A stretch of 64,000 nt of DNA from the NCBI GenBank assembly GCA_019677205.1, contig JAAMXY010000639.1, positions 33,240-97,239 of the forward strand, written 5' to 3'. Below the pieces are notes generated by a model that was not told the origin of the DNA, searched no databases, and saw nothing but the letters and a program-made list of their open reading frames with translations. Within the stretch, counting starts at the first letter, position 1. Every line of letters starts with the position of its first letter. Both the position numbers and the translations under genes were made by a program. Source of the stretch: Pinguiococcus pyrenoidosus. Taxonomy: Eukaryota > Sar > Pinguiophyceae > Pinguiochrysidales > Pinguiochrysidaceae. This document shows, piece after piece, positions 36,632 to 62,100 of the stretch.

Positions 36632-37611
36632 ATGAAGTTCACCCTCGCTGCTGTGCTCCTTGCCATCCCGGCCGTCTTCGGCTTCGCCCCGCGCGCCTCG
36701 GGTACGTGGAGCAGAACGCAGGGTCGAAACGGCGACGTATCTTGCGTGTTTCCTCGGCTTCCCGGCGGCATGTCGGCGCCACGCAGCACGCTGACCTGCC
36801 TCGCTCTTCGTAGTCAAGATGGCCATGGAGAGCCCCATGCAGAAGCAGCTTAAGTCCATGGTAAGCGCGCGCGGAGGCAACTGTTGAACTCGAAGTTGAG
36901 GTTGCGTTGCGGACTGAGGTGGAAGGCGCCTGGGCCCTCTCCAAGGCGCCGTTTGAGCGTGTATGCTCCACTTAAGGATTCCAAGGGGATATGGAGCGGG
37001 GTTGGAGTTGGGGGTGGGACGGATGGCGGAGATCTGCTCCGAAAGCGCCATCTCTGGACAAGTGACGTCTCTTCATCTGCGCCGAGTTTTTTGGCATGAC
37101 TGATGTCGGGCTACCTGGATACCTGGATGCTTTCGTGGATGCTGACGTGGATCCTGTGTTTCTTCAGGCCCTCGCCGGTGCCCTGGTGTTCGGATCTGCG
37201 GGTGCTGCTTTCGCTGGTGACATCGGCAATGGGGAGAACATCTTCAACGCCAACTGCGCTGCTTGCCACGCTGGCGGCCAGAACGTCATCCAAAACGAGA
37301 AGACCCTGTACAAGGATGCCCTCACCCAGTACCTTGATGGTGGCATGAAGGAGTCCTCCGTTGTGTACCAGGTGCGTTCGAGGAGGAAAGCTTTGGGTGA
37401 AAGGCGAAACGCGGAAGGCGAAACGCGGAAGGCGAAACGCGACGAAGGCCTCTTACGAGTCTGCTCTTCTTCCTCTGCGGTTTGTTCCATCTGTGAGCAG
37501 GTCACCAACGGCAAGAACGCCATGCCCGCTTTCGGTGGACGCCTCTCCGACGACGAGATCGCCGATGTGGCCTCGTACGTCATCGACCAGGCCACTGGAG
37601 AAAAGTGGTAA
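36632..37611 (+). CDS. petJ: Cytochrome c6, thylakoid lumen electron carrier
   Basis: Four exons (36632-36701, 36814-36860, 37168-37371, 37501-37611) encode 143 residues. The presequence is tripartite: ER signal MKFTLAAVLLAIPAVFG, then FAPRAS (Phe at +1) and a basic transit-like part, then a thylakoid-transfer segment ALAGALVFGSAGAAFA ending in an AxA-type site. The mature protein is 88 residues from GDIGNGENIF: haem-binding CAACH at 69-73, and NAMPAFGGRL with the axial Met at 115. It carries electrons from cytochrome b6f to photosystem I and, in many algae, replaces or substitutes for plastocyanin. The three-part targeting signal is strong evidence for a plastid with four membranes of red-algal origin. 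Introns sit near the joints of the presequence modules, as expected for exon-shuffled targeting signals. Confidence 0.95.
37401..37442 (+). repeat. 14-bp tandem repeat in cytochrome c6 intron 3
   Basis: Three near-perfect copies of AAGGCGAAACGCGG within the 129-nt last intron. Confidence 0.9.
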
Positions 37612-38042
37612 ACTCGCGCAACGGGCCTTGCATTTGTTGGTGTGGCAACCGCCCCCACGCGATGGACGTCTCTGCGAGTGTATGAACTGACGAGACCGCG
37701 ATACGGCTCGCCCTCGAATGTGGCTTTGCGAAATGCTGGCTAGTATGTAGCTTGCTAGGAACGCAGGGTGCAACGAGAGGAAGGAGACATCTTTGTGGAT
37801 AAACTTATCTTGGCTTGCCTTGGCTTGGCTTGGCTTGGCTTGGCTTGGCTTGAGAAAAGGAACATACTGACACGTGCGGACCCATGGCGGATCCATCGGT
37901 GGATGCTAGACAACATTAATTTCAGGACTCGCGCAAACACACATAACAAACCTGAACATACATAGCTGTGCGCTGCGGTGCAACCGGGTAGCTTCCTTCA
38001 CGGCTGCACGAAATCTAATCAGCGAAGGCACAGCACCGCCCC
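37612..38042. other. Intergenic region between convergent genes with CTTGG pentamer array
   Basis: The 3' flanks of cytochrome c6 and the giant cadherin/IPT gene. A run of about seven TTGGC/CTTGG pentamers lies at 37813-37855. No gene seen. Confidence 0.6.
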
Positions 38043-41000
38043 CTAAAGCTCTTCCTCAGCTTCAGAGGGAGCGCTGGCGTTCGTCGGGGAGGTGAACTCC
38101 CCTTGTAATGCCCTTGCCTGCTCCGACGCCTTCCGCTCCTCTTCAGTCCCCGCGCGGAACTTGCGGACCTTGCTCTTCTGCCGCACCGGAGCAGCTTGGA
38201 GCGTGTTTTGCATGGTAAGGTTCTTGATGATCTTCTTGTTCTCGAGATTCTCCCGCGTGAGATTCTTGACGGACTCCTTCAGGCGGACGTAGTCCTCGAT
38301 GGCCATCTTCAAGGTGCCCGGGTCGTCCTTCTCCTGCTGCTGAGGACGAGCCTCTCCCGCTCCCACCAGCTGCGGGTTGGCAGTCATCTCGAACTCCGAG
38401 TCGTCGATGATGCTCTCGTCCTCCTCCCCGTGCACCTCGGTGTTCAGGAACGGACATGCCAAGCGCGGGAAGATCACGGCCACGATCTCCGTCCAGACCA
38501 CCACTCCGTAGTAAATGACGGAGAGCATGATCACCACCAGGGCCGTGTACGTCAGCGCATCCAGATCGGCCGAGCCGTCCTCCAAGTACTGCGACTCGAA
38601 CATGATTCCGAAGAGGTTGATGAGAATCGCGCAAATCAGCAGGATGGCCTCGACGGTGTTCCAGTTCCAGAAGTAGCTTGCGCTCGCGTTCGCCAGCCCG
38701 GCAGCAGTCACGCGGCTTCGGGTCTTCTCGAGGTCGGAGTCGCGTCCCAGGTGGAGGTGCGCCACGCCCTTCCGCACCGCGACCGCGTTCGCGGCCGTCG
38801 CGTGCTTGTCTGCCGCGTCCCTGATGAAAGCGACGTCGTCGGCGTAGTACTCCAGCACCTCGTCGCGCTCCTTCATCGACATGTAGGGGATGTGACGGAC
38901 TTGCAGCGCGTAGGCGCTGAAGATGACCAGCAGGATCATGCACATCTGGAACGTCGGGTTGGTTCGGAAGATGAGGGCGAACGTGACGATGCCCAGCTTG
39001 CGACCCAGGATGAGCAGCTTCCAGAACCAGAACTGCGGCTTGAACTCGTAGTACAGGCGGCTGTACCGCTTCCGGAACTCGTAGCAGTTCGGGTTCGTGG
39101 CCCGCGACTCGCCCTTGCCCATCGCCCGCAGCAGCTGGTCTTCCTTGATCATCTGCGTGTTGTCGGGCTTGAAGAGGATGTAGCCGACGACCGCTGGGTA
39201 GCCAATGCCGTAGAGGATGAAGAAGAAGATGGCCGGGCCCGTGAGCTCCTGCTGCAGGCCGCCGTCAACGTAGCATTGCTCGCTGGGCTGCGCCGCCAGG
39301 TACTCGTTCCCGTCGCTCACTCCGTCCTCCGACTCGATCTCGATGCAGTTGAAGATCTCGAGCGTGTTCGCCACGATGAACAGGTACAGGTAGTACATCG
39401 AGATCAGACTGAGCCCGATCATGGTGTGCAGGTGCGCATGCAGACGACGACCGTGCACCCGCTTGATGAAGAACTTGTGCATCAGCTTGAGCACGTGAAG
39501 CACGGCGAAGATACTCAGGATGAAGAGCGGCGTCAGCTCGATCAGGTACCACTTCGTCCGGTAGCTCACGACGAAGATGCACTCCGGAGCCGTGATGTTC
39601 AGGTTCACGTTGAACACGCTGAAGATGGTGAAGAGCTGATCGATGCTGGCGGGCCACTCGACGCGCGTCGAGCTGAAGATCGCGAGGATCTGGAAGTAGT
39701 CGATACCAATCGACAGGATACCCATGTTGACGCGGTTCTTGTGCAGATAGTAGGCGCCCATCGCGACGATGAGCACGCCGGACACAAAGAGGATCAAGAT
39801 CGCCAGCGGCTCGTCCGGGCACTTCTGGCATTCGCCGCCAAAGCGGTAGTACTCCAGCCGCGTGCTGCCCCGGAAGCACTCCTCGTTCCGAATGAGCTTG
39901 CCTAAGAAAGAGGAGGGGAAACGCCACGTCAGCTCAGGGAGCAGTCTTCCCGGCAGGGAGCCTCGGCAATGCTGCGTACCGGTGATGGGGTCATTCACGT
40001 TTCGGTGGGCTTGGTCGCAGCATTCAGCGCACCGTTCTCCGGTGTAGCCTCGCTTGCACATGTTCTCTCCAACACAGGCCTCCGCGGGCTCGCACGGCTG
40101 AACCTCGTAGCACTCCGTTCGATGGACGCGGTCTTCGCCGCACCGGTCCAGGCTGAGACCCGGCACGCTCGCCAGCCAGTATCCTTCGACGCTCAGCGGC
40201 TCCACCGGGTAGACACCGTTCGGCTCGGCACAAGTAGTTCCAATCTCACATTCCACGCAGAACTCGTCGATACGCGTCAGGACGCTGCAGTTGCGCGCGA
40301 CTCCACCGGCCAGGGGCGGCGACTCCGTCAGCCTGCACGGGGTCACCGCGATGCAGCTCTCGTCCGTGTATGTATTCGTCTCTTCGTCGTAGTAAGCCAT
40401 GCAATCCAGCGACTCCTGCGTGCAGCGTTCGCAGTCTCCAAACATGTCGATGTCCTCCGTCCAAGATTCCTGCCCGTAGTAGCCCGCCGTACAGCGCGGC
40501 TGAAGGAGCTGGGCCTCTTCCGGATAGAAGACGTTCTGCTGCGCCACCGTCACATTCAAAGACTGGTATCCGACGCGGATGCGCGGCAAGCTGCACCAGA
40601 GGTAGATCTGGCCATTCGCCTCCGTGAAGATGGGGACCGTGGACTCGCCCAAAGTGACCTGTCCGCATGGGACGTCGCCGACGAAGATGCTGACGTTTCC
40701 GGCGGAGGCCTCGCTGAATCCGAAGTTCTTGCCCTCGATCTCGATCGTAGTGCCAGCGGCGTTGGGCTTGTTCGGGGACACACCGGCGACAAACGGCGGG
40801 TCGTAGTCGAAGAGGAGCGTGTCGGACACGAAGTCCTCCTTCGTGATGTACACCGACACGTTCGTTCCAACGCCCGGCGGGACACGGACGGAGATGACGC
40901 TGTGCGAAATCAGGCGCACCTCGCTCTGAGCCAGCTGCACGCCATTCCATACCACCGACGGCTTCGTGATACCGAAGTTCTCCCCAGCGATGCCGATCCT

Positions 41001-44000
41001 GTACCCTCCCTCCGTGCCGAGGCCGCAGCCTTCCTCGCTGAAGCGCTCGCAATTGGCGTACAGATCCTCCTCAAAGACGCCGTCTTGATTCTTCACGAGG
41101 CGATCCACGCGTGGCGGATCATACGTGAATGTCACGTTGTTGTTGGAATCCTGTCCGGCAACCTGCAGGGTGACGTTCTGTGGGGAGAAGCCTTCTCCGG
41201 CGGGTAGGTCAAACGTGATTCGCGTGTGCGTATAGTTTGTGATGGCATCCGGGTCGACCTCCACACCATCCACAGCCAGCACAAAATCCGAGCCGACGCC
41301 GAAGTTCGTTCCGACGAGCTCGACGGGGTAGCCGCCGTCGGTGGCTCCCGAGTTCGGGCTGATGCTCTCGATGTACGGAGCCTCGTACCGCAACGGAATG
41401 GTCGAGAGGTCTCCCGAGACGTTGAACTGCAGGAAGGCAGCGCCCTGGCCTGGCCCAATCGCGATGTGCGCCGTGGTATGGTTCTGCGGAGGTTCCGGCA
41501 GAACGACGGCCGTGAAGGGCGGCAGCGTGAGCAGCCGCCGCCTCTCGATCGCCACGGTCACGTATTCCACCGTAAGCGTGCCGGTGGGACCAAAGTTGTC
41601 ACCGAAAAGGAAGAAGTCTCCACCCACGGTGTCCACCGGCGGGATCTCGCCCGTCGTGAGGATCGGCTGCTCGAACTCGAAGAGGCATTCGGACGTCGCG
41701 ACCAAGTCATCGACGCGGATCTTCACGGGGCGGCAGACTCCCGCACCTTCCGGACTGAGAACCTGCATCTGCGTCTGGTTCACACTTCCGGAGATGATGT
41801 CCAGATCGACGGACGTCGTTCCCGCGCCCCAGGTCACCGTGACGACGGCTTCGTCCGCGCCGAAGTTGCTGCCGAAGATCGTGATGATCTCTCCGCCCAT
41901 CGTGCCCACCAGCTGCGGCGTGGCCAGCGCGATCGTCGGACTGCGGTAGTCCACGTAAATGTTCTTCGACTCGTCGCCCGTGAAGGAGTTCAGACCTCCC
42001 CTGGTGACGATGACGATGTTGTCCTGCCCCGTTCCCACCGGGACAAAGAAGCGCACGCTTCGAATCGGGTCCGCGGTCACGAAGCCCGAGACCGATGGCA
42101 GCGTCACGATGCCGTAGTCGAGATCGAGCTCGGCGGGCACGCCCCCAACCGTGATGGAGATCTGCCCAATCTGCAGACCAAAGTTCTGGCCGGCGATGGT
42201 GATGTTCGCCGGTGCGTTGCCGAATTCCTGGATCGCTTCGTCGCTACCGTCGGTGTTGTATCCGTCGGGGTTCGGCAGGTACGTCGGGTCCGTGGTGATG
42301 AGAATCGGGCTGAACTGGTCGAAGCTCACGGAGTTGCTCGTCTTCGACCCGAGCACCACGGAAGCATTTCCCTCGCGCCCCACGAAATTGAGGAGGATGC
42401 GATCATGCTCCCAGGACGTGACGATGCAGGATCCCAGGTTGCCGTAGTCGCCTCCGAGGCCGGCGCACTCCACGCCGTTGATGTACGCTCGCCCGACCTC
42501 CTCGCGACCGAAGGAGGATCCCACGATCTCGATGTCAGACGTCTCGAGGAAGTTGCCGATGTCGGCTCCAACAGCGTTCTGAAGGCTGGAGATCACGGGA
42601 CCGGCGTACTCAAAGGTGCCCACCACGACCGTTCGCTCCGTCTGGCCTTCGAGACCGCGGATGTAGCTCCTCACGCTCAGCGTCCGGTTGTGAACGTCGT
42701 TAATCATCTCGGGAGCGTCGAAGGTGAGCGTCTCGACCTCCGTGCTGGGCTCGAAGTCCGTGTAGATCCCGATCTCGTCCGGGAAGATGGTGGTGATCAC
42801 GCCGCCGGGTCCGTCCACGGGAATCACGTCCCCGTCGAACAGAATCTGAATGCCCACGTCCGGCACCTGCACACCGAAGTTGAAGCCGTCGATGGACAGC
42901 GAGAACCCGCCCGCGGTGGACTGCAGCTGGGGGTACACCACGAGTCCCACGGGAGCCGCGTACGACAGGCCCGCCCCCGGATTGAAGTTCAGCTCATTCG
43001 CCTGGCCGGACACGGTCACACTCCAGTACCAATCGGTTCCCAGACCGGGTGGCGTGAGGCAGTCGATCTGCCGGTGATCGATGCGGACGCAGGTATCCAG
43101 CACGAACTCGATTCCAGACGGGCCAACGCGCACGCTCTCCAGATCCCCTTCCGGGCCGAAGTTCCGACCGAAGATGGAGACGGCCTCGCCGCCACTGGTC
43201 TTGGCCGCCACGGGTCCGACGACCGAGTCCACCACGGGCTCGCCATATTCGGTCGTCGGCACGGTCGACAGCTGGCCATCTACTGTCACGAGCCACGTGT
43301 GCCCGAAGCCTGAGCCCGGAATGGTGGTGCAGTTGATCTGCGTGTGGTCGGTGACGATGCTGCAGCCACAAGTTGTGTACAGGAAAGAAGGCGCACTGGA
43401 GGGCTCCACCGTCGCAGCCGCGAAGCCGCCCTCATCGGTGGGCGCCGCGGAAGGCAACATGGTGGGGACGTTGAGGATGGCCGGCTCCACGATGTCTCGC
43501 ACATCGCATACGACGTACTCCTCGCCCGTCGGGCCATACGTGATGAGCTCGAGCGTGTTCATGTCACGGCTGCCGAAGTTGTCTCCGTTGATGATGACCC
43601 ATTCGCCACCTTCCGTGTTGGCGCCATCCTGGAAGTTCAGGTCCCACTCGGTGGTGTAGAAGGCCACCACGGGCCTCGCGTAGCTCATGTTGCCGTAGGT
43701 GTTGCTGACCTGCCCGTCAATGTAGACCTTGACGACCAAGTCGGCTCCCGTGCCTGGGCTCGTGAGGCATCGAATCTGCGTGTACACCGTGGAGACGGAG
43801 CAGTCCTGCGCCGTGATCTCGTCTCCAGTCTTGCCGTAGGTCACGATCGGCGTGGCTCCGCCGTTGCCCAGGAGAGGGCCGAACTCGTCGCCATCGATGG
43901 TGAGAAGCTGGTTGCCGCTTGTCTGCGCGTTCGCGGCGCCCTGCCCACCCAGCGCAAAGCCTCCCGGAGAGAAGATGCTAGGAGGCGCATAGTCGAGCGT

Positions 44001-47000
44001 GGTTGCGAAGTAGGGAGATTCGACGCCTCCCGTTACGATGCGAACGCGGTACCCGGTGCCAACGCCCGGCACGGTGGTACACCGCACGTGCGTGTGGTCG
44101 CTGAGGACGGAGGTGGAAGGGCAGTCGGCGGTGTAGGTCCGAACTCCGTTCGTGTACTCCACCTATAAGAAGACAAAACCGGTTCACGACACATGTGCGT
44201 CAGGGGTCTGAGGGTCTCCGGTCCTCTCGGAAGAAAGGAAGAGCCAGTGCAAAGCCAAATCGCAATTCAAGATGCGGACTCACCTCCACGATGCCCAGCG
44301 AGTTTGTACCGAAGTTGATACCGAGGAGATCCAGCGCCTCTCCTCCGCGGGTGGTCAGCGTGTTGGCGCCTGCCATGACTCCATCGACCACAAGCGTGTC
44401 GATGCGCGGGCGAGCGTAGTCCCAGGTCTGCGATGGTTGAGATACCGAGAGGCCGTAGACTTCGACGGTGAACGTGAAGTCCACCCCCACGCCCGCGGAC
44501 GTCGTACAGACGATGGACTCCTGTCCGGCGGAGAAGACGGAGACGGGAGAGGAGCAGATGTACGTGTTGATGCTGTTCGAGTACGTCACGCTGATCTCCT
44601 GCGTCGACGAGGAGGGGCTCACGACGGCACTCGTAGCTCCCGTCGGTCCCAGGTTCTGGCCTTGGATCGTGATGGTCTGACCGCCCGTGGTGGCGAACTC
44701 CGCCTCGCTCGACAAGATGACGTCGATCGTCGGGGCGGTGTACTCCAGGTCGACGCCAAACGTGACGGTCTGCTCGAACGTCCCCGGAACACTGGTGGTG
44801 AGACTCAGTGTGAGGCCGTCGCCTCCGCCTGGCGGGCTGACGCACTGGATCTCGCTGTACGGGATGGAGTAGTAGCAACCCTCCGCGGTGAAGCTCGTTC
44901 CCAGGGTTGCGCTCTCGAGCACCACGGTGAGGTTGCTCAGGGAGCTCAGGACGGGATCCACGGGACCAAGGTTGCTGCCCGAGATGGTCAGCGTCTCGTT
45001 TCCAAGCGTCGACAGGCTCGAGGGCGTCACCGACGCGATCACCGCATCCTCCTCGTCCGTCACCGTTATCGTGACGATGGCATCTCCCGTCAGGCCAGCT
45101 TGGTCCGTCGCGCGCACATGGAGCACGTAGGACCTCGCGACTTCGAAGTCCAACGGCGCCGTCGCGAAAACGAGGCCGGACACCTCGTCAATGTCAAACA
45201 AGCTCGACCCGTTGATGATGGAATACCGCAGCGTCTCGGTCTGGCCGTTGTCGGGGTCCGACGCGAGGAGCGTGACGACGTCCGGGCCCCTGCTTCCCTG
45301 CACTTCATTCTCCTCGACCACGGCGTTGTAGTCGGGCAGGATTGGCGCCTCCGGTCGGTCATTGATGGCGATGACGAGCCCGCCGATGGCCGACAGATTG
45401 AAAGAATCGGTGGCCTTCACATCGATGTTGACGATACCGTTGAAGAACTCGGCGTCCAGAGAGCGAATCAGCGTGACCGTGCCGTTCGGATTGATCTCGA
45501 CAAACTCCGCTCCTGCTGGGCTGCCCAAGGAGAACGTGACGTTATCATCAAAGTCTTCGTCGATGATGATGTCCGGATTGATGTCCCCCAAGACCACCGG
45601 GAAGGCGTTGTTCTCGTCGACGAAGAACGTGGTTGTCGACGCGAAGGACGGCGGCTCCGGCACGTCGCTGATGTCAATTGTGATCGTGGCCGTCGCCGTG
45701 AGGGTGCCCGTGAAGTTCCCGATGCCTCCGTCGGAGACCTCTACCGTCAGCACGACGCTCCTGGGGTTGCCCTGCCCACCCCAAAGCTCGTCTTCGAAGC
45801 TGTACAGGGTCGCTCCGGGTTGTGCCAGGCGAAGCGTCGCAATGAAAGGATCGGAGGGTTCCAACGCGTCCGGGGTGCGCGTGCCGTTGGACACCAGCTC
45901 GAACACGCCCAGGCAGGAGGCGAATGTCGCCGTTGTGCAATTCCCAATGGTGAAGGCCAGGGTCTGCTCTTCGTTCGAATCGAAGGCGAAGATATTCATC
46001 AGGTTCCCGGCCGAGTTCTCGGGGATCGTCTGCTCCACGTCCGCAATCGAAGGTCGGAGGTTCGCCTCCACCGCCGCAATCTGGTACTCCCGCGTGTCGG
46101 TCAGTCCCTCACCATCGCTGAGCTGCACAGTGACGTTTGCCGTCTCGCCCTCTCGGAACGTGGAGCCGGCTAGGATGAAGAGCAGCCCCGAGGAGCTGTC
46201 GACGTAGAAGGCCGAATCCGGGTTCACCAGCAGCGAATAGTTGAGCTGACCCCAGCTGTCGAAGTTGTGGATGGGCTGGTCCTCGTCCGACCCCGGAATG
46301 AAGCCGATGCTCTCGTCCTGGAGGTACGATTCGCTCTCTCCAACGAAGAAGCTTCGGGCGGCCAGGACGGGGGCGTCGTTCACGTCGATGACGTTGATCG
46401 TGATCTCCGCGTCGGGGACGGCGAACAGCTCTCCGCCGTCTTCGCAAACGACTTCACCGCGCAGCACGCTGGGCGAGGTCTCAAAGTTGAGCGCCACGCT
46501 GGTCGAGATGGCGCCCGTGTTCGCATCAACCACGATCACGCCGGCTTCCGCACTCAGGTTCGAGTACGTGTAGGTAACCACGCCCCAGGGGGAGGTGTCG
46601 GCGTCTTCGTCCACGCATGAAATGGGCGTGCCGCTGATGCCCGCACTGCCGACGCTGTTCTCCTCCAGATCGAAGGCGTAACCGGTCTCGGTGAAGGCGG
46701 GAGCGTCGTTGGCGTCCAGGATGTTGAAGGTGACTAGGGCGTCGTCCGTGCGCTCGTCGGTCGGATGGCCATCGAACACCCGAGCGGTGAACTGGTACAT
46801 CGTCGGTGGGGTCTCGAAGTCCAGATCGGCAAGCACGCTGATGACGTTCTCGGACGCCTCCTGGAAGTCGAACTCGCCCGTGCCATCCAGGAAGGAGTAG
46901 CGCTTCCCGAAGACCACAGCGTCCGTCTCGACCAGCGTCACGTTGCCGACGGCGCTGAACAGCGTCGCATCCTCAGGTACGTCGATGACGGTGTCAATGA

Positions 47001-50000
47001 GATCCGGCGCCTCGTTCGTGTCCGTGATCGAGATGGTGAGGTTCGCCAAGCCCGAGAGGCTGGCGAAGGTGGCGCCGGAAGGAATCTCCCCCGCGTCCGT
47101 CACTCGCACCTCGAGCTTGTAGGACGTCAGCGTCTCGAAGTCTAGCGAACCGCTGGTGCCGGTGAAAGTTACATCCGGTCGGCTCGTGTTGAGGATGTCG
47201 AAGATGAGCAATCCACCGGGCTGCTCCGGGAACATGCGGACGGCTTCCAGCGTGTACCCGTCGAACACCGTGTTCGGAGCCGTCAAGGCCGGGAAGTCTT
47301 CGTCGCTGATCAGGAACTGCGGCGTGAAGACGTCCCCGTTCTCGGCATCTTCGGGAACGCTCAACGCCTGAAGGAAGTCGAGGGCGGGGGCATCGTTCCT
47401 GTTCAGCACGTTGATCGTGACGGTTGTGACCGCCTCCGCGAACTCGCGATCCAGGATGCGAACGTCGATGCTGAAGCTGGGATCCTCCTCGAAGTCCACT
47501 TCGACGCCGTCGACCAGGAAGATCTCGCCCGTCGACTCGTCGATGTCAAAGATGTCCGTCGTGGTCCCGAACCCATCATTGCGGATGATCTTCCATTCAA
47601 ACGTCTCATTCTCGTCCAGATCCGACACGGGCAGCACCTCGCAGGGGACCGAGCCGCCGCAGGTCCACGTCCCGTTCAGCTGCGCCCCGGCGACGCCTTC
47701 GACGACTTCCATCACCGGGTCGCTGACCGTGAAGCTGGGGGGATCGTTCACGTCTGCCACGTTGATGACGATGTAGTCGACGTCGACCTTCGTGGGATCG
47801 CCCGAGTCGGCCACCTGGATGGTCAAGTTGAACGGGCCGTCGTCCACGAAGCTCAGGCAGCACCTTCGGACGAAGATGGTGCCGGTACAGAACCCGATGT
47901 CGAACCAGCCCTCGCTGTTTCCGTCGATGATGGAGAAGCTGAGCTCGTCGAAGGCGTCCGCGTCCGTCGCCGTGACGGGATCGCCCACGACGGTGTTCAC
48001 GACCGACCGCTCCTCGACCGACCGATTCTGCTCTCCGACGTCCAACACGGGGCGATCGTTCGTGTCCGTGATGGCGACGGTGACTTCGCAGGAGTCCCCC
48101 GCGAAGACGGACTCGCGCACGTTGACTGTGAAGGTCAGGTTCTCGTTCGCACTGCTTTCGAAGTCCAGAGCGGGACCATTCAGCTGGATGACACCGTCGC
48201 TCGACACGTTGAACAGCAGATACTCGCACACGCCGCTGAATCCGGTGCCGCCGTCGCAGTCCACGTTGGTCCAGTTGCCATCGGTGTTCAGAGTGCTTCC
48301 CTCGATCGCGACGCAGTTGATGATGTTCGGGGAGTCGCTGTTGGGCTGTCCCGTGGCCCAGCTGTCGTAGATGACGTCGATGTCGCTGTCGTAGATCTTG
48401 AACTCCCCGGCGACATCCTCGTCGGTGATGCCCAGGAAGACCAAGGGGCAGTCCGTCTCGCACCCCGGCGACAGGCTGTTCGCGAGGCTCAGGACGTTCA
48501 GGTCTTCCAGGTAGTTGTCGGGAATGATGAGGTTGCCCCCGTCGCTCTCGCAGTCTGATGCGGCCTGATCGAAGTTGATGTTTGACGAGGCGGTGAGGCG
48601 CAGGCACTGCCCGTTCCCGTTGACGTCGAAGAACGTGTATCCCGCCGGGCAGAGCAACTCGTTCACGTACAGATCGCTGATGTAGTAGGACAGGGGCAGA
48701 CTCAAGATGCTGGTCGAGGTGAGATTCGCCACCTCCACGAAGTCAGCCTGCTCGGGAACGCTGGCCGTCTTGGTGCGCGTGGCTGCGCAGCTCGCGTCGG
48801 TCCACGTGATGCGCGGCACGCGCAGGCCGTCACTTCCGCAGAAGTTCTCCGGGGGGCATGCCTCGAAGCCTGTTCGCTGGTTCGTCGGGTTGCTCTCCGG
48901 GGTACTGTACGAACCGGAGGGCACGGCGATGGGCACGCCATTCCCACCCGGGCAGTACCAGGCAGCGGGGAACGCTTGCCCCTCCCCGCAGGGCAGCTCC
49001 TGCCGGCTTGTACTCGCCCCGGGGCAGATGAAGCCCGGGTCGCAGTCGCCGCTGCAGGTGCTGTTGGTCAGGCCGGTGGTGGCTCCGTACGTGCCCGCCT
49101 CGCACTCGAACTGCTCGCCTCCAGTGCAGTAGTGCCCACGGGGGCAGATCAGGCTCGAGAACTGCGTGGTGCTGGTGGCCCCCACGCCGTAGAAGCCAGG
49201 CGCGATGGTGGTGGGCCCCGAGGACTCCTCGGGGCAGAAGACCGCCACGGATCCACACTCGAACTTCTCTCCGCCGTCGCAGTAGAAGCCGGCCTCGCAC
49301 ACCTGCTCGCTGGTCCGCGTGTTGCTGGTGCCACCAATGGTCTCGTATCCGACCGTGACGGGGGTCGGGCTGGTCTGCGAGGCGCCGCCGGGGCAGTAGA
49401 AGGCCTCGCCTCCACACTCCTTGGAGGTGAAGTCGCCGGGGCAGAAGTAGCCCGCGGGACAGGCCACCTGCGTGCACGAGTCGCACACGTAGCCGGCCGG
49501 GCAGGAACAGTAGAAGAACTTCGTCGCCTGGAAGATGGCGTTGCTCTCGGCGAACGTGAGCAGGCGGTCCTCGTACAGCGCGAACATGCCGATGGCACCC
49601 TCGAAGCCATAGTCGTCATACAGGTCCACCAGCTGGCCGGTGTTGACGACGTTGCTTCTGCTGACCCCTCCGATGATACCGAGGTCGGCGTCGGTCCAGT
49701 AGGATTCGGGATCCGTGTCGACGTTGGTCGTACTGCAGGTCAAGTCGATGCACACGCGGATGCCGCCGGCGCCGTCCGTTCCAGCGGAGATGAAGTGCCA
49801 CTCGTCGTCCGGCACGGACGGAAGGTTCGGAGTGGTGACGAAGTGGAAGGTGCTCACCTTCTCCGTGTCTCCCAGGCGAAAGTCACCCTCGAACTTCCAG
49901 CCCGGCGTCCAGTAGAAGCTGAAGCCGGTGAACTGATCCAAGCTGGCTTGGTAGCCCCAATTGACGATACTCTCGAGCTCTCGGATTCCGGCCGTGGCCG

Positions 50001-51398
50001 AGTATCTCGACGGCGGCACCTTGATCCACGTAGCAAAGGTGAACTCCTCCGCCGTGATGAAGGGGAAGTCTTCGGACGGGCTCACGAGCGACACGGTCGT
50101 GGGCAAGTAGTTGTCGCCCTGGAACTCAAAGAAGCGGCGCGTCACGCCGTCGGACGCCTTCACATCGGAGGTCACGTTGGGCGGGTTCGCCCACGCCTCG
50201 TTGATGAAGGCGGCCTGGTAGGCCTTCTTGTCCGAGGCCATGTTCACGAGGTTGGGCACGATCGCCTCCTCGCCCGAGGTCTTGGCCGCGTCGATGAGGA
50301 AGCTCAGGAAGCTGCTGGTCGACAGGCCGGTCAGCTTGTCGCTGGGACAGCCGCTGCCCGTGGTGTGCGGGTTCGACTCGGACTCGCAGTCGTAGCCGCC
50401 GGCGTCGAAGAAGGTGACTTCCTCCACCGCGATGGCGTAGGTGTCGAAGACCAGGTCCTCTCCGCCGTTCTCCTCGGCGCCCGGATCCTCGCAGTAGTCT
50501 TGCGAGTTCGATGCCGTGATGACCGTGCAGGAACCGTCGATGTTTGGATGGCAGCAGCTGGCCGAGGTGCAGGTGCTGAAGCAGCAGTCGCCTCCATCCC
50601 AGTCGCAGCCGGGCTTGGCGTTGTCCGTGCTCGAGCCTCCGAACTGGCCTCGGTTGCAGACGCCGTCGCCCACGAAGAGGAAGTTCGAGAAGGAGCCGCA
50701 GGAGAACGTGCTGCCGGACGCGCAGCGGATCGTGCCCTGCCACATGTCGTCGAAGTAGGCATTAAACTTCACCTTCACGGCGTTGGCCGGAATCGGGATG
50801 AGACCGGAGTCCCGCCACTCGTCTCCCAGGTTGCCATTGATGGTGTAGATGGTCTGCTCGTTGTCGGACGCATCGACGCTGAAGATGTTCAGGTACTGGT
50901 TTGTTGGGTTCCCGTTCATGTTCAGCTTGAAACTCAGGTGGGTGTAGGTTCCCTCGGCGAAGGTGGAGCTCTCCGCGGTGGCCACGGGCGTGGACGTGTC
51001 CGTCGCCGAGCAGATGTCGCCCGACACGGCCATGTAGCAGTTGGAAGGGGTGTTTGGCCCGCCCGGACCATAGTCGTAGTGGTCAACCGTCTCGTTGGTG
51101 AAGGCGTGAGTAAGGCTGGTGGGCGGGTTTGGTGACAACGCCACGGCTCCATAGCTGCATTTCCAAGGCCAGATTCGGAACCGGCAGAAGAAAGAACCAC
51201 AAACGCAAACAACCAAAGACAGCGCACGTCAGCGTGTTCGAACATCAGGTCACAAGACAACGCCGCATTGCAAGGAACGTACATGGTCCAACCCGACGTT
51301 GCTCCACCCAGGAAGGTAGCCGGAACGCAGAGGTCTACGACGGTGTCCGCGCGGACCGCGGCGACGCTCAGCAGCGCGAGCAGAGCAGTCCGCTGCAT
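38043..51398 (-). CDS. Giant membrane protein with LamG-like, C-type lectin, cadherin and IPT/TIG domains
   Basis: Four exons (51283-51398, 44284-51154, 39980-44162, 38043-39901) encode about 4342 residues. Order: signal peptide MQRTALLALLSVAAVRA; a hydrophilic N-part; a LamG/concanavalin-like region (about 395-530, FTFATWIKV); GCC2/ephrin-receptor-like Cys-rich repeats (about 586-815); a C-type lectin domain (about 873-1023, FLGITDEDVAGEFKI and GNWTNVDC); about ten cadherin repeats (about 1024-2075) marked by DTNDRP, DVNDPP, DANDAP and similar; about fourteen IPT/TIG domains (about 2078-3560) marked by GGxxxxIxGxNFG; a Cys-rich EGF-like stretch; and about ten TM segments (3750-4200). A cytosolic coiled coil (VKNLTRENLENKKI) ends it. 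The last intron (78 nt) has no stop and is a multiple of three; removal gives NDPITGKLIRNEECF. Likely a cell-surface adhesion or sensor protein; function unknown. Confidence 0.88.
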
Positions 51399-55215: not shown

Positions 55216-58200
55216 ATGCGGTGCTACACAGCGGTCTTCCTGGGCCTGGGTCTGGGCCTGGTCCCCCTGGCGTCAGCGATCATGACAAACTACTACGAGC
55301 CCACGACCGTCCACGCAACGTACACGAATGGGGGCGTCACGTACATGAACATCAGCTGCCCGCATTCGACGGAGTACTGCTGGTTCATCCCCGGCAACCG
55401 CGAGACACCCAAGGGTGACTACGACGCCCTGAATCGAATAAGAACCCTTTGCAACTACGAGCAGTGGGCGCCTTTCGCCGTCCAAAACTGGTGTGTCGCG
55501 GGAGAACTGGGGTCAAACTCGGTGGTCCCTATCATTGATCCAACCGCGCCGAATGGGTTCAGACGTACGTAGCAGCACCTTATGCCCTTCCTTGCTAGAG
55601 GCATACAGTTCCTCTAATCGTTTGCCTTCCGCTCAGTGGAAAAGATCTGCTTCGACAGCGATACCATCACAGATCCCTGCACCGGCAAGCTCGTGGTGTT
55701 CTCCGACGACTACGCAAGGAGCGTCTCCTCCTCCGAAGGCCATGAGACTCTCATACCAAAGATTGCGCAGAACCTAGACGAGAGCGGCGCCTCCTATCAA
55801 CACTTCGATATGTGGTCTGCGATTGTGTGTCGCAGCACAGCCGCCGAAGCTGCAGGACAGGATCACGTGGCAGAGCTGCTGTTCGATACGCCCATCACGT
55901 TCCAGAACTTTTCCTGCAGCCTCTCGGACATGGACCTGAGCACGATGGAGTTCCTTGAGATAGTCAGGCTCACCGGCAAAACTTTGACAGGCGGTCTGCC
56001 TGCTTACTTCGGGAACTTCTCAAATCTTCAAATTCTTCGACTCGCGTCGACGAATCTTGGAGGGGAGCTGCCGCCAGAGGTCGGCAACCTGCAAGGTATT
56101 CTTCGCATTGACATTGGAGGCAATGATTTCGTTGGCGAAGTCCCGGAATCTTGGTTGAACAATCCAACTCTGCAAGACCTCATTCTGAGGCACAATCGCC
56201 TGACGGGGACGCTGACAGCCCGGCCTCCAGACGCCACGCAGCTTTTCCGCCTGGAAGTAGAGGAAAACCAGTTCTCTGGCACTCTGCCGGACTTGTCTGA
56301 TTTGACGCTGCTGACCTACCTGGACCTGGCGAACAACAACATCAGTGGAGAAATCCCCGAAGCTCTGGCGGACTCCCTGAAGCTGCAGGAGCTCATCCTG
56401 CGCAACAATGATCTCACCGGCACTCTTCCGGCGAGCATCAGCAGGATGACAAACCTGAGGGTCCTCGACCTTCGAAACAACCGGATGAGTGGGTACATTC
56501 CGAGGCTGCCGGACAGTCTGGACACAGGCGTGGTGGATTTCTCCGGGGACAACATGGACTGGTGGTGTCCGTTTGGCTACCATCCGGACAACGACAACCT
56601 CTCCGTTTCGTACGACAGCGAGAGCCACGCAGTCTGGAATCAGCTGGATTGCACCTGCCAGACAGGCCACTTTTGCCCCGCTGGACAGGACTGCCATTTC
56701 CACTGCACCATCTGCGACACCGGCACCTACTCCAACACCACCTTCGCAGACGCCTGCTCCGCGTGTGAAGTGGGACGGAGTCAGCCGCTTCAAGGACAGG
56801 CTTCCTGCAACAACTGCCAAGCCGGGGAGTATCAAAGTCTGGCTGGGCAGCCGACCTGCCTTAACTGCACTGCCGGCGAGTACTCGACCGAGGGCGCCGT
56901 TGCTTGCTCCTCCTGCGAGGCCGGACGGTACTCGCAGGAAAGCAGGAGTGGCTCCTGTGAAGCTTGCGCAAGGGGTCGATTCAGCAACGAGACGTCACGG
57001 AGCACGCCGTGTGACCCTTGCGCCGCCGGGTCGGCGACAAACTCCACGGGCCAGACGGCGTGCGACGTGTGCCAACCTGGCACGTATGCTGACGCCGCCG
57101 AATCGTTCGAATGCACGAGCTGTACACCGGGACGGGCGTCCAACCACACTGGCCGAGTTGACATCTGCCCGCTTTGTGGCCCCGGAGACTTCTCAAACAG
57201 CTCCGCGGCAACTAGCTGCACGCCCTGTGCACCGGGATCGGTCTCCGAGTCGCTGGCAGGCAGCACGTCCTGTGAACTGTGCCCCAAGGGTTTCTACAAC
57301 GGCTTGTATGGTCAGACGGAATGCCTGCCTTGCCCCGACAACTTCGTTGCCTCGGAAACGGGCACGTCCGAGTGCATCCAGTGTCAACCGGGTCGACACA
57401 CGATCGGCACTGTGAGATGCGACTTTTGCTTGCCGGGCGAGTATTCCGACGCTTTTGGAGCCGAGATCTGTAGCCCTTGCCCGTCGGGGGCCGTGTCTTA
57501 CGGCTTCGGGGCCACTGAGTGCACGATGTGTGCGCCAGGGTCGAGCTGGCAGTCCGATGGCCCGTACCAGGCGCCGCAGTACTGCCTCTTCCAGCGCGGC
57601 TGCTACCTCGCTGTCAATGGCGACTCGATCGATATCCTCGAGAACCCCGCGGAAGGCTGTCCCAGGAATGCGTCCGCAGCGTCGACGGATGTCTTCCATC
57701 CGAACCTCGACGCCTGCTACTCGACGGGTCAACTTGTCTACGGCGGATGGAACACCAGCTGCGTCGAGTGCGGCCTCGGCAGGTACAGCGCAGACGAGGG
57801 GTCGGTCGAGTGCACCGCCTGCAGTCCAGGCACGTTCGCCGCCACGACAAACTCCTCCGAGTGCGACGTGTGCCCGCTTGGCCGCTACACGAATCAGTCG
57901 GCGTCGAGCTCTTGCGACGCGTGTCCCGCCGGTACCTTTGCGAACGAGACCGGCCTTCCCCAATGCCACACCTGTCCTCCCGGCAAATTCTCGAATGTCA
58001 CTGGCGCCACGACGTGCATGGACTGCCCTTCCGGCAGCCAGGCGCCGGGCTACGGATCCGAAGAGTGCAGCGTGTGCTCGGCCGGAAGGTACGCTCCGAG
58101 CGAGGGGACGCCAGGGTGCCTCGCTTGCGAGCCCGGTCGAATCAGCACGGCGGACGGTGCGACCGCCTGCGACGAGTGCCCGATTGGCTACTTCTCCGAC

Positions 58201-61200
58201 GTGCCCGCCGGAACGTCCTGCAAGGAGTGCAGCGCGGGGCGATACGCCAACGAGACAGCCAGCGCGGTTTGTACGCTTTGTGAGACGGGCAGGGCTTCCA
58301 ATGCGACTGCCGCGGATTCCTGCACCCTGTGCTTGCCCGGGTATCACACGTCCTCTCGAGGCGCCGTGGAATGCTCCACGTGCTCAGCAGGCTACTACGC
58401 AGCCGAAGCGGGGCAGGCGACTTGCCTTCCGTGTCCCCTTGGCTCGGCATCGAATACGTCCGCGGCGACAGCCTGCACGGAGTGTGCTCCGGGCTCGTTC
58501 GCCGACACGGAAGCTTCAGAAGAATGCTCGCCGTGCGACCCCGGCTCCTTTGCGGAAGGAAGCGGGAGCTCCACCTGCACCTTGTGCGATCCTGGCAGCT
58601 CCGCGGCAACGCCAGGAGCCACAAACTGCTCGTTGTGCCTGCCAGGAAGCGCCGCCAGCGCTCCAGGGGCAACAGAATGCACCTCTTGCGAACCGGGATC
58701 CTTTGCCAGTGAGAATGGAAGCGTCGCCTGCACTCCCTGCCACGTTGGCGAGGCATCCAACATGACTGGAGCAACGCAATGCGAGCTCTGCGAAGAAGGA
58801 TTCTTCAGCGCGACGCTAGCAGCCAGAACATGTGACGCCTGTCCTGTTGGAAGGTTCATGCACATTAAAGGAGGTGTTGTGTGCACTCCTTGCGCTTTTG
58901 GGCAGTACGCCAACTCGACGGGATCTACTCAATGTGAGGATTGTCCCAGCGGAAAGTACACCGACGGAGTGGAACAAACATCCTGTAAAGAGTGCGAGCC
59001 AGGGTACTCCTCATTCTTCACAGCTTCGGGTGGATGCCTTGCTTGTTCACCTGGCAAATTTGCGAACTCTTCTGGAAGTACGCAGTGCTCCACGTGCCAG
59101 CCAGGCCGCGCTTCCTCGCTGTCCGCCGCTACGAATTGCTCAGCTTGTGCGGTCGGCTACGAAGCGCCACGCGCTGGGCAGGAGCAATGCAGTGCGTGCG
59201 AAGTCGGCTCCTTCGCCAGCGAAGTCGGTAGCCCCGAGTGCAGCCTGTGCGCCGCTGGCAGGTTTGGGAACGAGACCGGCGCCGCGGCGTGCTATCCTTG
59301 TCCGGCGGGATCCACCTCCGAAGCAGAAGGAAGCAGTTCTTGCACCAACTGCGGCGCCGGTCGCTTTGCGCCAACAATGGCATCCACGACCTGCGAGGCC
59401 TGTCCCGTTGGGAGCTTCTCAACCGGCGACGGAAGCGCGGCCTGTACGCTTTGCGCCCCTGGACAGAGCGCGGCCAGCGCCGGCTCCCGTGCTTGTAACG
59501 ACTGTGGCTTGGGCCGCTTTGCCAATGCTAGCGGCGCTGCGGAATGTGCTCCGTGCTCTCCGGGGTCATACGCCAACGCCACAGGAGCCGAGTCGTGCAC
59601 GACGTGTCCCGCTGGCTACTTCGCTGACGAGGCGGAGAGTGCGCAATGCGAACCGTGCGCACCAGGCTCACATGCGGCGGGCACCGGGAGCCAGTCCTGC
59701 GATCTCTGTGCCGCCGGATACTTTGCCGAGAGCACCGCAGCGGCCGAGTGCGAAAAGTGCCCGGTTGGCTACTACCAGGCCGATGCGGGAGGAGACAGCT
59801 GCAGCGCATGTCCGCCAGGCGAGTTCAGCGGCGTCGAAGCCGCCGTCAACTGCAGCTTTTGCGGCGTCGGAACGTTCACGGATGCTCCTGGCCAGAGCTC
59901 GTGCAGCGCATGCCCTGCTGGTTCCATTGCGGCGGAGACGGGGGCGGCAGAGTGCGACGAGTGTCCGGCGGGAAGGTTCGCCAACGAGTCTGGAGGCAGC
60001 GAGTGCACCAGCTGTCCGCTGGGCAGAGCGGCGCCGCTTCCAGGTAGCCTTGCCTGCACGGAGTGCGCCGCTGGCTCCATCGCGCCCTTCCACGGTCTCG
60101 CAGAGTGTGTTCCTTGCACGCCGGGTACCTATCTTGACGACACCGGCGCGACGCAATGCGTCTCGTGCTCTCCAGGACGCTTTAGCAGCGGCGTCGGCGC
60201 CACCGAGTGCCAAGACTGCGGTCCTGGACGCTTCTCGGACCAGTTCGGCGCCGCAGAATGCAGGGAGTGTCCTGCTGGCTTCTTTGGCTCTGCCAGCGGC
60301 GCGCAAAGCTGCGACCAAGCCTGCCCCGCTGGAACGTACTCGGACAGCAGCAGTCGCGCATGCGTGCCGTGCCCTCTGGGTACGCGAAGCGCCACGGAGG
60401 GCGCCGCCAGCTGCACGCCGTGCGAGGCCGGCTACTTCGCCGACGAGACGGGCTTGGTCTCGTGTCGAGAATGCCCTCAGGGTCGATTCGCCAACTTCAC
60501 TGGAGCGGTCACATGCGAACCGTGTCCCAGCGGATCGTTCTCGCCTACGCAAGGACTCGCGGCATGCTCGCCCTGCGCCGGCGGCTCCGTCGCGGAAGGC
60601 AGCGGGAACCAAGAGTGCACGGAATGTCCGCCAGGGTCTGCGGCGCCTGAAGGCTCCAGCGAATGCTCGCTTTGTCCTCCCGGGACCGAAGCGCCATACG
60701 CGAACATGAGCTCATGCCTCTCGTGCCAGGCTGGCACCTTCGCCGACGTCGCTGGTTCCACCAGCTGCCAAGCGTGCCCTCTCGGAAGACACAGCAGCGC
60801 CGACGGAGCAGCTTCCTGTGCTCTTTGCGAAGCGGGAACATCGGCGCCAGAACCGGGTCTTTCCTCGTGCACGCTCTGTGCCGCCGGACGCGCGACGGCT
60901 GAGCCAGGATCTGCCAACTGCGAAGCCTGCGACGTGGGCACGTATGCCGCGGATACTGGCATGGCCACCTGCTCTCTTTGCGAGCCTGGATCCTTCGCCG
61001 CCGTGATCGGATCGCCGGAATGCATGCCTTGCCAGCCCGGGAGCGTCTCGTCCAGCACCGGTAGCAGCGAGTGCTCTCCGTGCCAAGCCGGTACGTTTTC
61101 AAGCGCAGAGGGTTCCACGCAGTGCACCGAGTGCGAGGCCGGGCGCTTTGCGTCGCAGAACGGTAGCATGTCTTGCAGCCCCTGCCAGGCCGGCTTCTTT

Positions 61201-62100
61201 GCAGCGAATGCCGGGTCGACGGAGTGCGATCCCTGCCCCAAAGGTCAGTTCACGGACGTCTTGGGGGCCGTCCAGTGCTCGCTATGTCCCGATGGCCAAA
61301 GCACGGCCGGGACGGGCTTCACGAGCTGCGTCGTCTGCTCGACGGATGGAATCCCGTGCCAGGGGTGCCCCGCAGGCACCTTCTCCTCGTCAACGCCTGG
61401 GAACAGCACGGAATGCGAACGTTGTCCAGCGGACACCTTCAGCACCGGCGACGCGTCCAGGTGCACGCCGTGTCCAACGGGAAGGTCTACGCAAGGGACC
61501 GTCGGCGCCACAAGCAGCAGCGCTTGCGTCTCCGGCTCGCGAGGCGACGACAGAATGGGATCTACCGACGACGATTCCGTTGGCGGGGACGAGGACACGC
61601 TAGAGCTTGTAGACGTCTCGAATCCGCTCTTCGCCATCTCCGCCACGGGTCTGGGCATCATGCTGGCGGGCTGTACGTGCTTCGCTTTCCGCTCCGCGAA
61701 GTCGCGTTGGCGGAAGGCTCTGCAGTCCACGGCGCCGGACTATGAGGAGCCGGCGTCTCCAACCGGGGAGCGAAAAGACGACCAGTGGACGCAGCGGCCG
61801 TCGAGCTCCATGCGCGACGAAGAAGAGAACGGTACACGGATGCCACGGCAATACCCTGTGTACCCCGGGGTGGAGGGGCCGAACGTCGACATGGAGGCCA
61901 AGCCTAGCCCGAGGAATAGCGCGGGATCTCCAGTGCACGAGCAGCGGAGGCCGACGCCAACGCCGTCGCGAAGCGTCCTCGAGGCGCTCCAATGGGAAGA
62001 GGCCTACAACGACGACGGTAGGCCATACTATCTGAATACCGAGACGGGGGAGACCCAATGGCACCGGCCGACGGGCTTCATCCCCAGCGCGCCATTGTAG
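55216..62100 (+). CDS. LRR / Cys-rich repeat / transmembrane / WW-domain receptor-like protein
   Basis: Two exons (55216-55564, 55637-62100) encode about 2270 residues. A hydrophobic signal peptide (to about residue 21) precedes an N-terminal domain. Plant-type leucine-rich repeats follow at about 232-412 (LTYLDLANNNISGEIPEAL, then LRVLDLRNNRMSGYIP). From about 455 to 2085 runs a continuous array of Cys-rich units of about 17 residues (CEPGSFASENGSVACTP type), related to GCC2/GCC3 or ephrin-receptor-like modules; about 90 units are estimated from length. A TM segment lies near 2115-2136, followed by a basic stop-transfer (RSAKSRWRK). The cytosolic tail carries one WW domain near the end (WEEAYNDDGRPYYLNT, then GETQWHRP). 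WW domains bind Pro-rich ligands. Topology suggests a type I receptor linking an extended stalk to a cytosolic partner. No enzyme domain is seen. Confidence 0.9.

Follow-up and report, generated by a model that had tools for sequence, protein, structure and literature searches.

Introduction

Cadherins of stramenopiles have been in print since 2010, when cadherins with calcium-binding motifs were reported from Pythium ultimum and a transfer from a choanoflagellate or animal into the oomycete ancestor was preferred as their origin (PMC2926784; papers are given by PubMed Central (PMC) number). A stramenopile family was named the 'nonagonal cadherins' in 2016 (Fletcher, van West, Gachon, Gene 593:64, as cited in PMC7409359 and PMC8164589) and has been termed tri-modular (PMC7409359); the literature surveyed leaves the function of stramenopile cadherins open. 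Here we analyze a gene at positions 38043-51398, on the minus strand, of a stretch of 64,000 nucleotides (nt) from the alga Pinguiococcus pyrenoidosus (the window, by which we mean the whole stretch), and we conclude with near certainty that its 4,342-residue product is a further member of these nine-pass cadherins. The word 'nonagonal' reportedly stands for nine membrane passes in the 2016 description, and the hosts are said to have a flagellated life stage. An earlier note on this DNA, made by a model from the sequence alone, had treated cadherin and C-type lectin modules as usually animal or choanoflagellate parts, and their union in an alga with a many-pass membrane domain as unusual; that cadherins are unusual outside animals and choanoflagellates is a view that the publications of 2010 and 2016 had already made out of date. 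Expression of cadherin, lectin, and laminin domains rises during stationary phase in a marine heterotrophic flagellate, whose cadherin may or may not belong to the nine-pass family (PMC7852580).

The other relevant system is the fungal Pkd2/Flc family (Pfam PF06011). Pkd2 of Schizosaccharomyces pombe, reconstituted in vesicles, passes Ca2+ upon membrane stretch (PMC12028594, PMC11277609). Trp1322 has been grouped with Pkd2 and Flc1-3 in one family (PMC12028594), and PF06011 has been used to find fungal proteins resembling transient receptor potential (TRP) channels, one of them homologous to Trp1322 (PMC8618638). In the literature surveyed, which did not extend to the text of Fletcher 2016, we found nothing that ties the membrane domain of stramenopile cadherins to PF06011 or TRP proteins. 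What is new here is the link between this membrane domain and the Pkd2/Flc type.

One gene encodes a nine-pass cadherin

The earlier note had placed a single large protein with three introns on this strand and span, and its gene model holds. Four exons, from the ATG at 51398 to the stop at 38043 (51398-51283 + 51154-44284 + 44162-39980 + 39901-38043), join into 13,029 nt with the sole stop at the end. All three introns begin with GT and finish with AG, and a JGI database protein of 4,342 residues (P0038, itself a gene model and not a transcript) shares this splicing and, apart from 4 of the 4,342 residues, the sequence. The main features of the gene are the following:

51283..51398, minus strand: exon 1, start codon and signal peptide (from the sequence; identical in P0038)
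51155..51282, minus strand: intron 1, 128 nt, GT-AG
44284..51154, minus strand: exon 2, N-terminal modules, lectin, 10 cadherin repeats, and first TIG domains
44163..44283, minus strand: intron 2, 121 nt, GT-AG
39980..44162, minus strand: exon 3, TIG domains and Cys-rich stalk
39902..39979, minus strand: intron 3, 78 nt, GT-AG, in frame and stop-free
38043..39901, minus strand: exon 4, nine-pass membrane domain and cytoplasmic tail (from AlphaFold models)
38439..39836, minus strand: nine-pass membrane domain, a distant PF06011 relative
38199..38321, minus strand: predicted C-terminal coiled-coil-like helix, model residues 527-567 (from the AlphaFold model)

Two main long frames cover the locus, 51216-44200 (2,338 residues, P0002) and 44162-38043 (2,039 residues, P0001); the second, the query in several searches, runs through intron 3 and so contains 26 intron-coded residues. 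Retention of intron 3 would insert these residues just ahead of the first membrane helix. Two findings argue that the locus is one gene: its paralogue on contig C39 reads without interruption from signal peptide to tail, as a single frame of 4,346 codons, and a 4,925-residue record (P0058; taxid 91992, Triparma pacifica) from MMETSP, a transcriptome project (PMC4068987), joins Cadherin, TIG, and membrane domain in one protein. The gene is conserved and its reading frame is intact.

A search for counterparts in other protists, which the earlier note had proposed, returned 85 database relatives that share the membrane domain (pooled from searches that gave 12, 60, and 17 proteins, or 86 distinct ones including P0038, the window gene itself). 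Every one of the 12 that bear an organism name or taxid is a stramenopile: Pythium insidiosum; Phytophthora sojae, infestans, oleae, and nicotianae; Triparma strigata (two); Tetraparma gracilis; Triparma pacifica (the MMETSP record); and Cafeteria roenbergensis (three). The same genome holds two paralogues by membrane domain, on contigs C39 (38%, 1.6e-101) and C228 (35%, 6.1e-65). In a midpoint-rooted tree of 75 membrane-domain rows (P0038, the two paralogues, and 72 of the 85 relatives, 13 having been dropped for too little domain), in which the longest branches (P0067, P0050, and C228) are unsure, T. pacifica, T. strigata, and Tetraparma join the window gene in a clade of nine rows (100/99), and C39 forms a pair with a different T. 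strigata protein (99/89). Taken at face value, these placements mean that the gene was duplicated before the window's alga and those bolidophytes diverged, and the clade with Triparma and Tetraparma supports a stramenopile host. At the level of genes, the genome also encodes IFT57 (8.8e-41) and IFT46 (1.7e-34), as expected of a flagellated lineage. Calcium-motif cadherin repeats, nine membrane helices (reportedly the number in the 2016 definition), a stramenopile host, and flagellar genes are thus all present, as expected of a nonagonal cadherin. Phytophthora and Pythium cadherin proteins share the membrane domain and may correspond to published members of the family.

Three observations concern the database records of relatives. 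The name UDP-glucose:glycoprotein glucosyltransferase given to P0077 of Phytophthora nicotianae, which has the membrane domain, looks wrong; P0018 (4,681 residues) carries an N-terminal partial second copy of the membrane domain, perhaps from a tandem gene fused in the model; and PF28399 stands in the database's Pfam column for P0006 and many relatives and is absent from the Pfam scans run here.

A distant Pkd2/Flc relationship of the membrane domain

AlphaFold models of exon 4 (40 aligned rows; mean predicted local distance difference test (pLDDT) 80.9, predicted template modeling score (pTM) 0.77) and of the membrane domain alone (mean pLDDT 88.9, pTM 0.88) contain nine membrane helices, one fewer than the roughly ten proposed earlier. 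Assigned on these models, with the helix at 84-97 taken as extramembrane, they span exon-4 model residues 31-54, 59-76, 113-145, 156-181, 215-243, 293-310, 315-336, 413-434, and 444-476. In this nine-helix topology the invariant cysteines 107, 185, and 209 lie on the outer side of the membrane and the long basic loops on the inner side, as would be expected if the ectodomain is external and the tail internal. Behind the helices, a C-terminal helix is predicted that looks like the coiled coil suggested earlier. The motif NP[LMIVQ], mostly NPL or NPM, occurs in 61 of the 73 tails of at least 60 residues, against 3.0 expected when each tail is shuffled (12 lack it); the window protein has NPQ, at about 38370-38380.

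That this domain is a distant relative of the PF06011 family is well supported. Of 31 members scanned, 13 matched PF06011 at E<=0.05 (best 9e-7); exon 4 of the window gene does not belong to these 13. In detailed tables it was matched by four of seven relatives, and all four matches, like the weak match of the window protein, end at model positions 341-343; for two further relatives it was listed at E<=0.01 in neither. The database's own Pfam column assigns it to P0006, P0063, and P0081. The window protein itself scores 10 bits in the Pfam scan and 16.5 bits in the search of its own genome, below the cut-off of 28.5 that Pfam sets for membership. Among the five matches to PF06011 in that genome the window gene ranks fourth and C228 fifth, C39 being absent. 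A different Cys-rich family of the same genome, on contigs C386, C268, and C215 (L031, L032, and L033), also matches PF06011, and C386 exceeds the cut-off when summed over the frame. Profile comparison (hhalign) aligned the nine-pass cadherin domain to this family with a probability of 97.1% and E 6.8e-11 over 251 columns, for a single target and a three-row template. As an observation in its own right, this family has a PF06011-type membrane domain, followed in two members by long tails.

Structure comparison may point in the same direction. With Foldseek, the AlphaFold model matched a Megaviridae environmental protein named transient receptor potential ion channel (probability 1.00, E 5.3e-4, TM-score 0.48/0.53, root-mean-square deviation 7.5), and two more proteins from the same Megaviridae source matched at E 0.046 and 0.63. 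A fold search of the membrane-domain models against the PDB gave no match at E<=0.001, and in its TRPC and TRPM rows the alignment was confined to the coiled coil. Domain hidden Markov models and structure prediction, which the earlier note had recommended for this region, thus yielded the distant PF06011 relationship and the nine helices, but no fold match in the PDB.

The ectodomain combines cadherin repeats, TIG domains, and a lectin

The extracellular part contains the following modules:

49531..50178, minus strand: LamG-like (concanavalin A-like) domain (Laminin_G_3, E 3.2e-5, 24.6 bits, below the cut-off of 27.6)
48781..49548, minus strand: Cys-rich repeats (from the sequence; best Pfam match no better than E 0.26)
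48211..48693, minus strand: C-type lectin domain (Lectin_C)
45040..48312, minus strand: 10 cadherin (EC) repeats, residues 987-2077 (Pfam Cadherin, own-repeat profile, motif shuffles)
40533..45060, minus strand: 14-15 IPT/TIG domains, residues 2071-3539, across intron 2 (Pfam TIG, own-repeat profile)

The cadherin repeats are genuine, as judged from their sequence. Pfam Cadherin matches the window protein at E 1.3e-45, and the best match among PDB sequences is CELSR1 (phmmer, 6.5e-14). Within residues 1020-2085 the calcium motif DxN[D/E]xP occurs 5 times against a mean of 0.05 in 2,000 shuffles, and [LVI]D[FYR]E 6 times against a mean of 0.2 (2,000 shuffles). Pfam TIG matches in two frames (E 4.7e-40 and 2e-10). 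A profile built from the protein's own repeats, whose seed boundaries were set by hand so that the counts depend on them, finds 10 cadherin repeats together with 15 TIG stretches; one of the latter (2575-2626) is a 52-residue fragment, so that the TIG domains number 14 or 15. The initial estimates had been about 10 and about 14. The C-type lectin likewise stood up to scrutiny: Lectin_C reaches E 6.3e-5 on the whole frame and E 8.6e-7 with 30.1 bits on the segment alone, above the Pfam cut-off of 22.6, and it is the sole Lectin_C match at E<=0.001 in a frame-by-frame search of the 23.7-Mb genome. The LamG-like part is suggestive, its Laminin_G_3 match being good in E value but below the cut-off in bits; a segment scan with Pfam also gave a weak MAM match (0.006).

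We considered the LamG-like domain and the lectin as features of the whole family and rejected this: single-segment phmmer searches, which would miss distant copies, gave no match at E<=0.01 for either one in the 85 database relatives and the own-genome frames C39 and C228a, though LamG families are listed for some relatives. PF13385 stands in the database's Pfam column for P0021, P0023, and P0063, and one of the 31 scanned members matches each of two LamG models. We suggest, weakly, that the lectin alone may be special to the lineage of the window protein. A Notch/LNR-like stretch at residues 201-230, spotted by eye, was likewise set aside, no such Pfam match being listed.

Two other contigs of the genome, C70 and C424, carry single open frames of 8,873 and 8,186 residues with many TIG domains; a search of the genome with the membrane domain did not find the nine-pass domain on either. 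Elsewhere in the window, a neighboring giant surface-type frame (55636-62097, plus strand; 2,154 residues) has leucine-rich repeats, 35 ephrin-receptor-like Cys-rich stretches, an NCD3G domain, and a WW domain, and a frame at about 37100-37650 resembles cytochrome c6 by eye, which would fit a photosynthetic host.

Proposed mechanism and alternatives

Because the membrane domain is related to PF06011 and S. pombe Pkd2 passes Ca2+ when stretched, we read the protein as a nonagonal cadherin in which an adhesive tether would pull on a calcium-permeable, force-sensitive nine-pass domain, a reading to which we give an even chance. On the gene structure, modules, family, and distant membrane-domain relationship established above, we infer binding, tension gating, calcium flux, oligomerization, and docking as follows. 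A probable glycan-binding tip, formed by the LamG-like and C-type lectin domains, would bind another cell, prey, extracellular matrix, or the cell's own coat. Calcium-stiffened cadherin repeats and the IPT/TIG rod would form a long chain, linked to the membrane domain by the Cys-rich stalk, which would transmit the tension of the chain. Under this tension the membrane domain may open a calcium-permeable path, the coiled coil may assemble subunits, and the conserved NP motif of the tail may dock a cytoplasmic partner. Of the functions that the earlier note had entertained (an adhesion or mechanosensory receptor, perhaps a channel or GPCR-like), adhesion combined with a channel-like domain is the best supported, by the cadherin repeats and the PF06011 relationship, whereas nothing supports the G-protein-coupled receptor (GPCR)-like part.

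Three alternatives deserve consideration. The strongest, though unlikely in our judgment, is that the nine-pass domain merely anchors a long calcium-dependent adhesive fiber that attaches the cell to other cells, prey, or substrate. The ectodomain is indeed made of adhesion-type modules, and an antibody against human FAT4 protocadherin, which may or may not recognize the nine-pass family, marked the perimeter of Phytophthora parasitica zoospores in aggregates, without being specific to the contacts between cells (PMC7409359). However, 23 columns of the membrane domain are invariant among the 40 rows, and several of these columns (D254, Q255, R276, K301) are charged or polar, which seems more than an anchor needs, although the rows were gathered by searches with the membrane domain itself and are biased towards it. 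A clearly less probable alternative is that the PF06011-like domain works as a transporter of flavins or lipids, the role proposed for fungal Flc proteins, with the ectodomain serving to target it; some fungal Pkd2 homologs have been proposed to be FLC-family transporters of flavin adenine dinucleotide (PMC8618638). There is no clear reason, though, for a carrier to bear a 3,700-residue adhesive ectodomain, and the TRP_N/ML-type domain described for the fungal members (PMC8618638) is absent from the Pfam families listed here. Finally, a GPCR-like adhesion receptor analogous to CELSR/Flamingo is very improbable. The cadherin repeats do match PDB chains of CELSR1, with a weak match also to a cadherin model of CELSR2, and GPCR chains occur in the fold-search lists; but the membrane helices number nine and not seven, no GPS/GAIN or seven-transmembrane (7TM) Pfam family appears at E<=1, and the GPCR rows (best 50 of 97) have Foldseek probabilities of at most 0.12, which is chance level.

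A force-sensitive, calcium-permeable tether would give the family a testable function by way of its Pkd2/Flc relationship, namely to admit calcium under tension at the surface of both flagellated protists and water molds, and an orphan adhesion family would become a candidate mechanosensor.

Comparison with known systems

The window protein shares with the nonagonal cadherins a cadherin ectodomain, a nine-pass domain (reportedly nine in that family too), and a stramenopile host, and differs from them in its additional C-type lectin, matched in no tested relative. With the Pythium ultimum cadherins it has in common calcium-motif cadherin repeats in a stramenopile; here, however, the fused architecture extends beyond oomycetes. 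Because it is common to bicosoecids, bolidophytes, and oomycetes, it would predate the oomycete ancestor, which argues against a transfer into oomycetes alone, or else have moved more than once. Classical cadherins have a single pass and a catenin-binding tail, whereas the window protein has nine helices and no catenin-binding Pfam family listed; it likewise departs from CELSR and other adhesion GPCRs in its helix number and in the lack of a 7TM or GPS family in the Pfam scan. The fungal Pkd2/Flc family resembles it in the membrane domain, through the repeated profile matches, the profile comparison, and the fold match to a viral protein named as a TRP channel. No fungal Pkd2/Flc member is known to carry a giant adhesive ectodomain.

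Polycystin-1, with about 4,300 residues, a C-type lectin, many Ig-like repeats, a polytopic TRP-related C-terminus, and a coiled coil, is similar only in how it would work. It differs in sequence families, as GPS/GAIN, PLAT, REJ, and PKD_channel are not listed at E<=1 for P0001 or P0002. In the PKD2-mastigoneme complex of Chlamydomonas, an extracellular fiber is fixed to a polycystin channel on the cilium, which is alike in architecture, but there the parts are separate proteins and here they form one polypeptide (PMC10846610). We tentatively propose, as a possibility we hold less firmly than the mechanism for this one protein, that stramenopile nine-pass cadherins in general are adhesion-gated, force-sensitive calcium channels that unite a Pkd2/Flc-type pore and a cadherin-TIG tether in one polypeptide, ancestral to bicosoecids, oomycetes, and ochrophyte algae. 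They would then parallel, independently and in one piece, both the animal tip link (cadherin and channel) and polycystin, with a cadherin tether and a mechanosensitive channel joined in a single protein far from animals.

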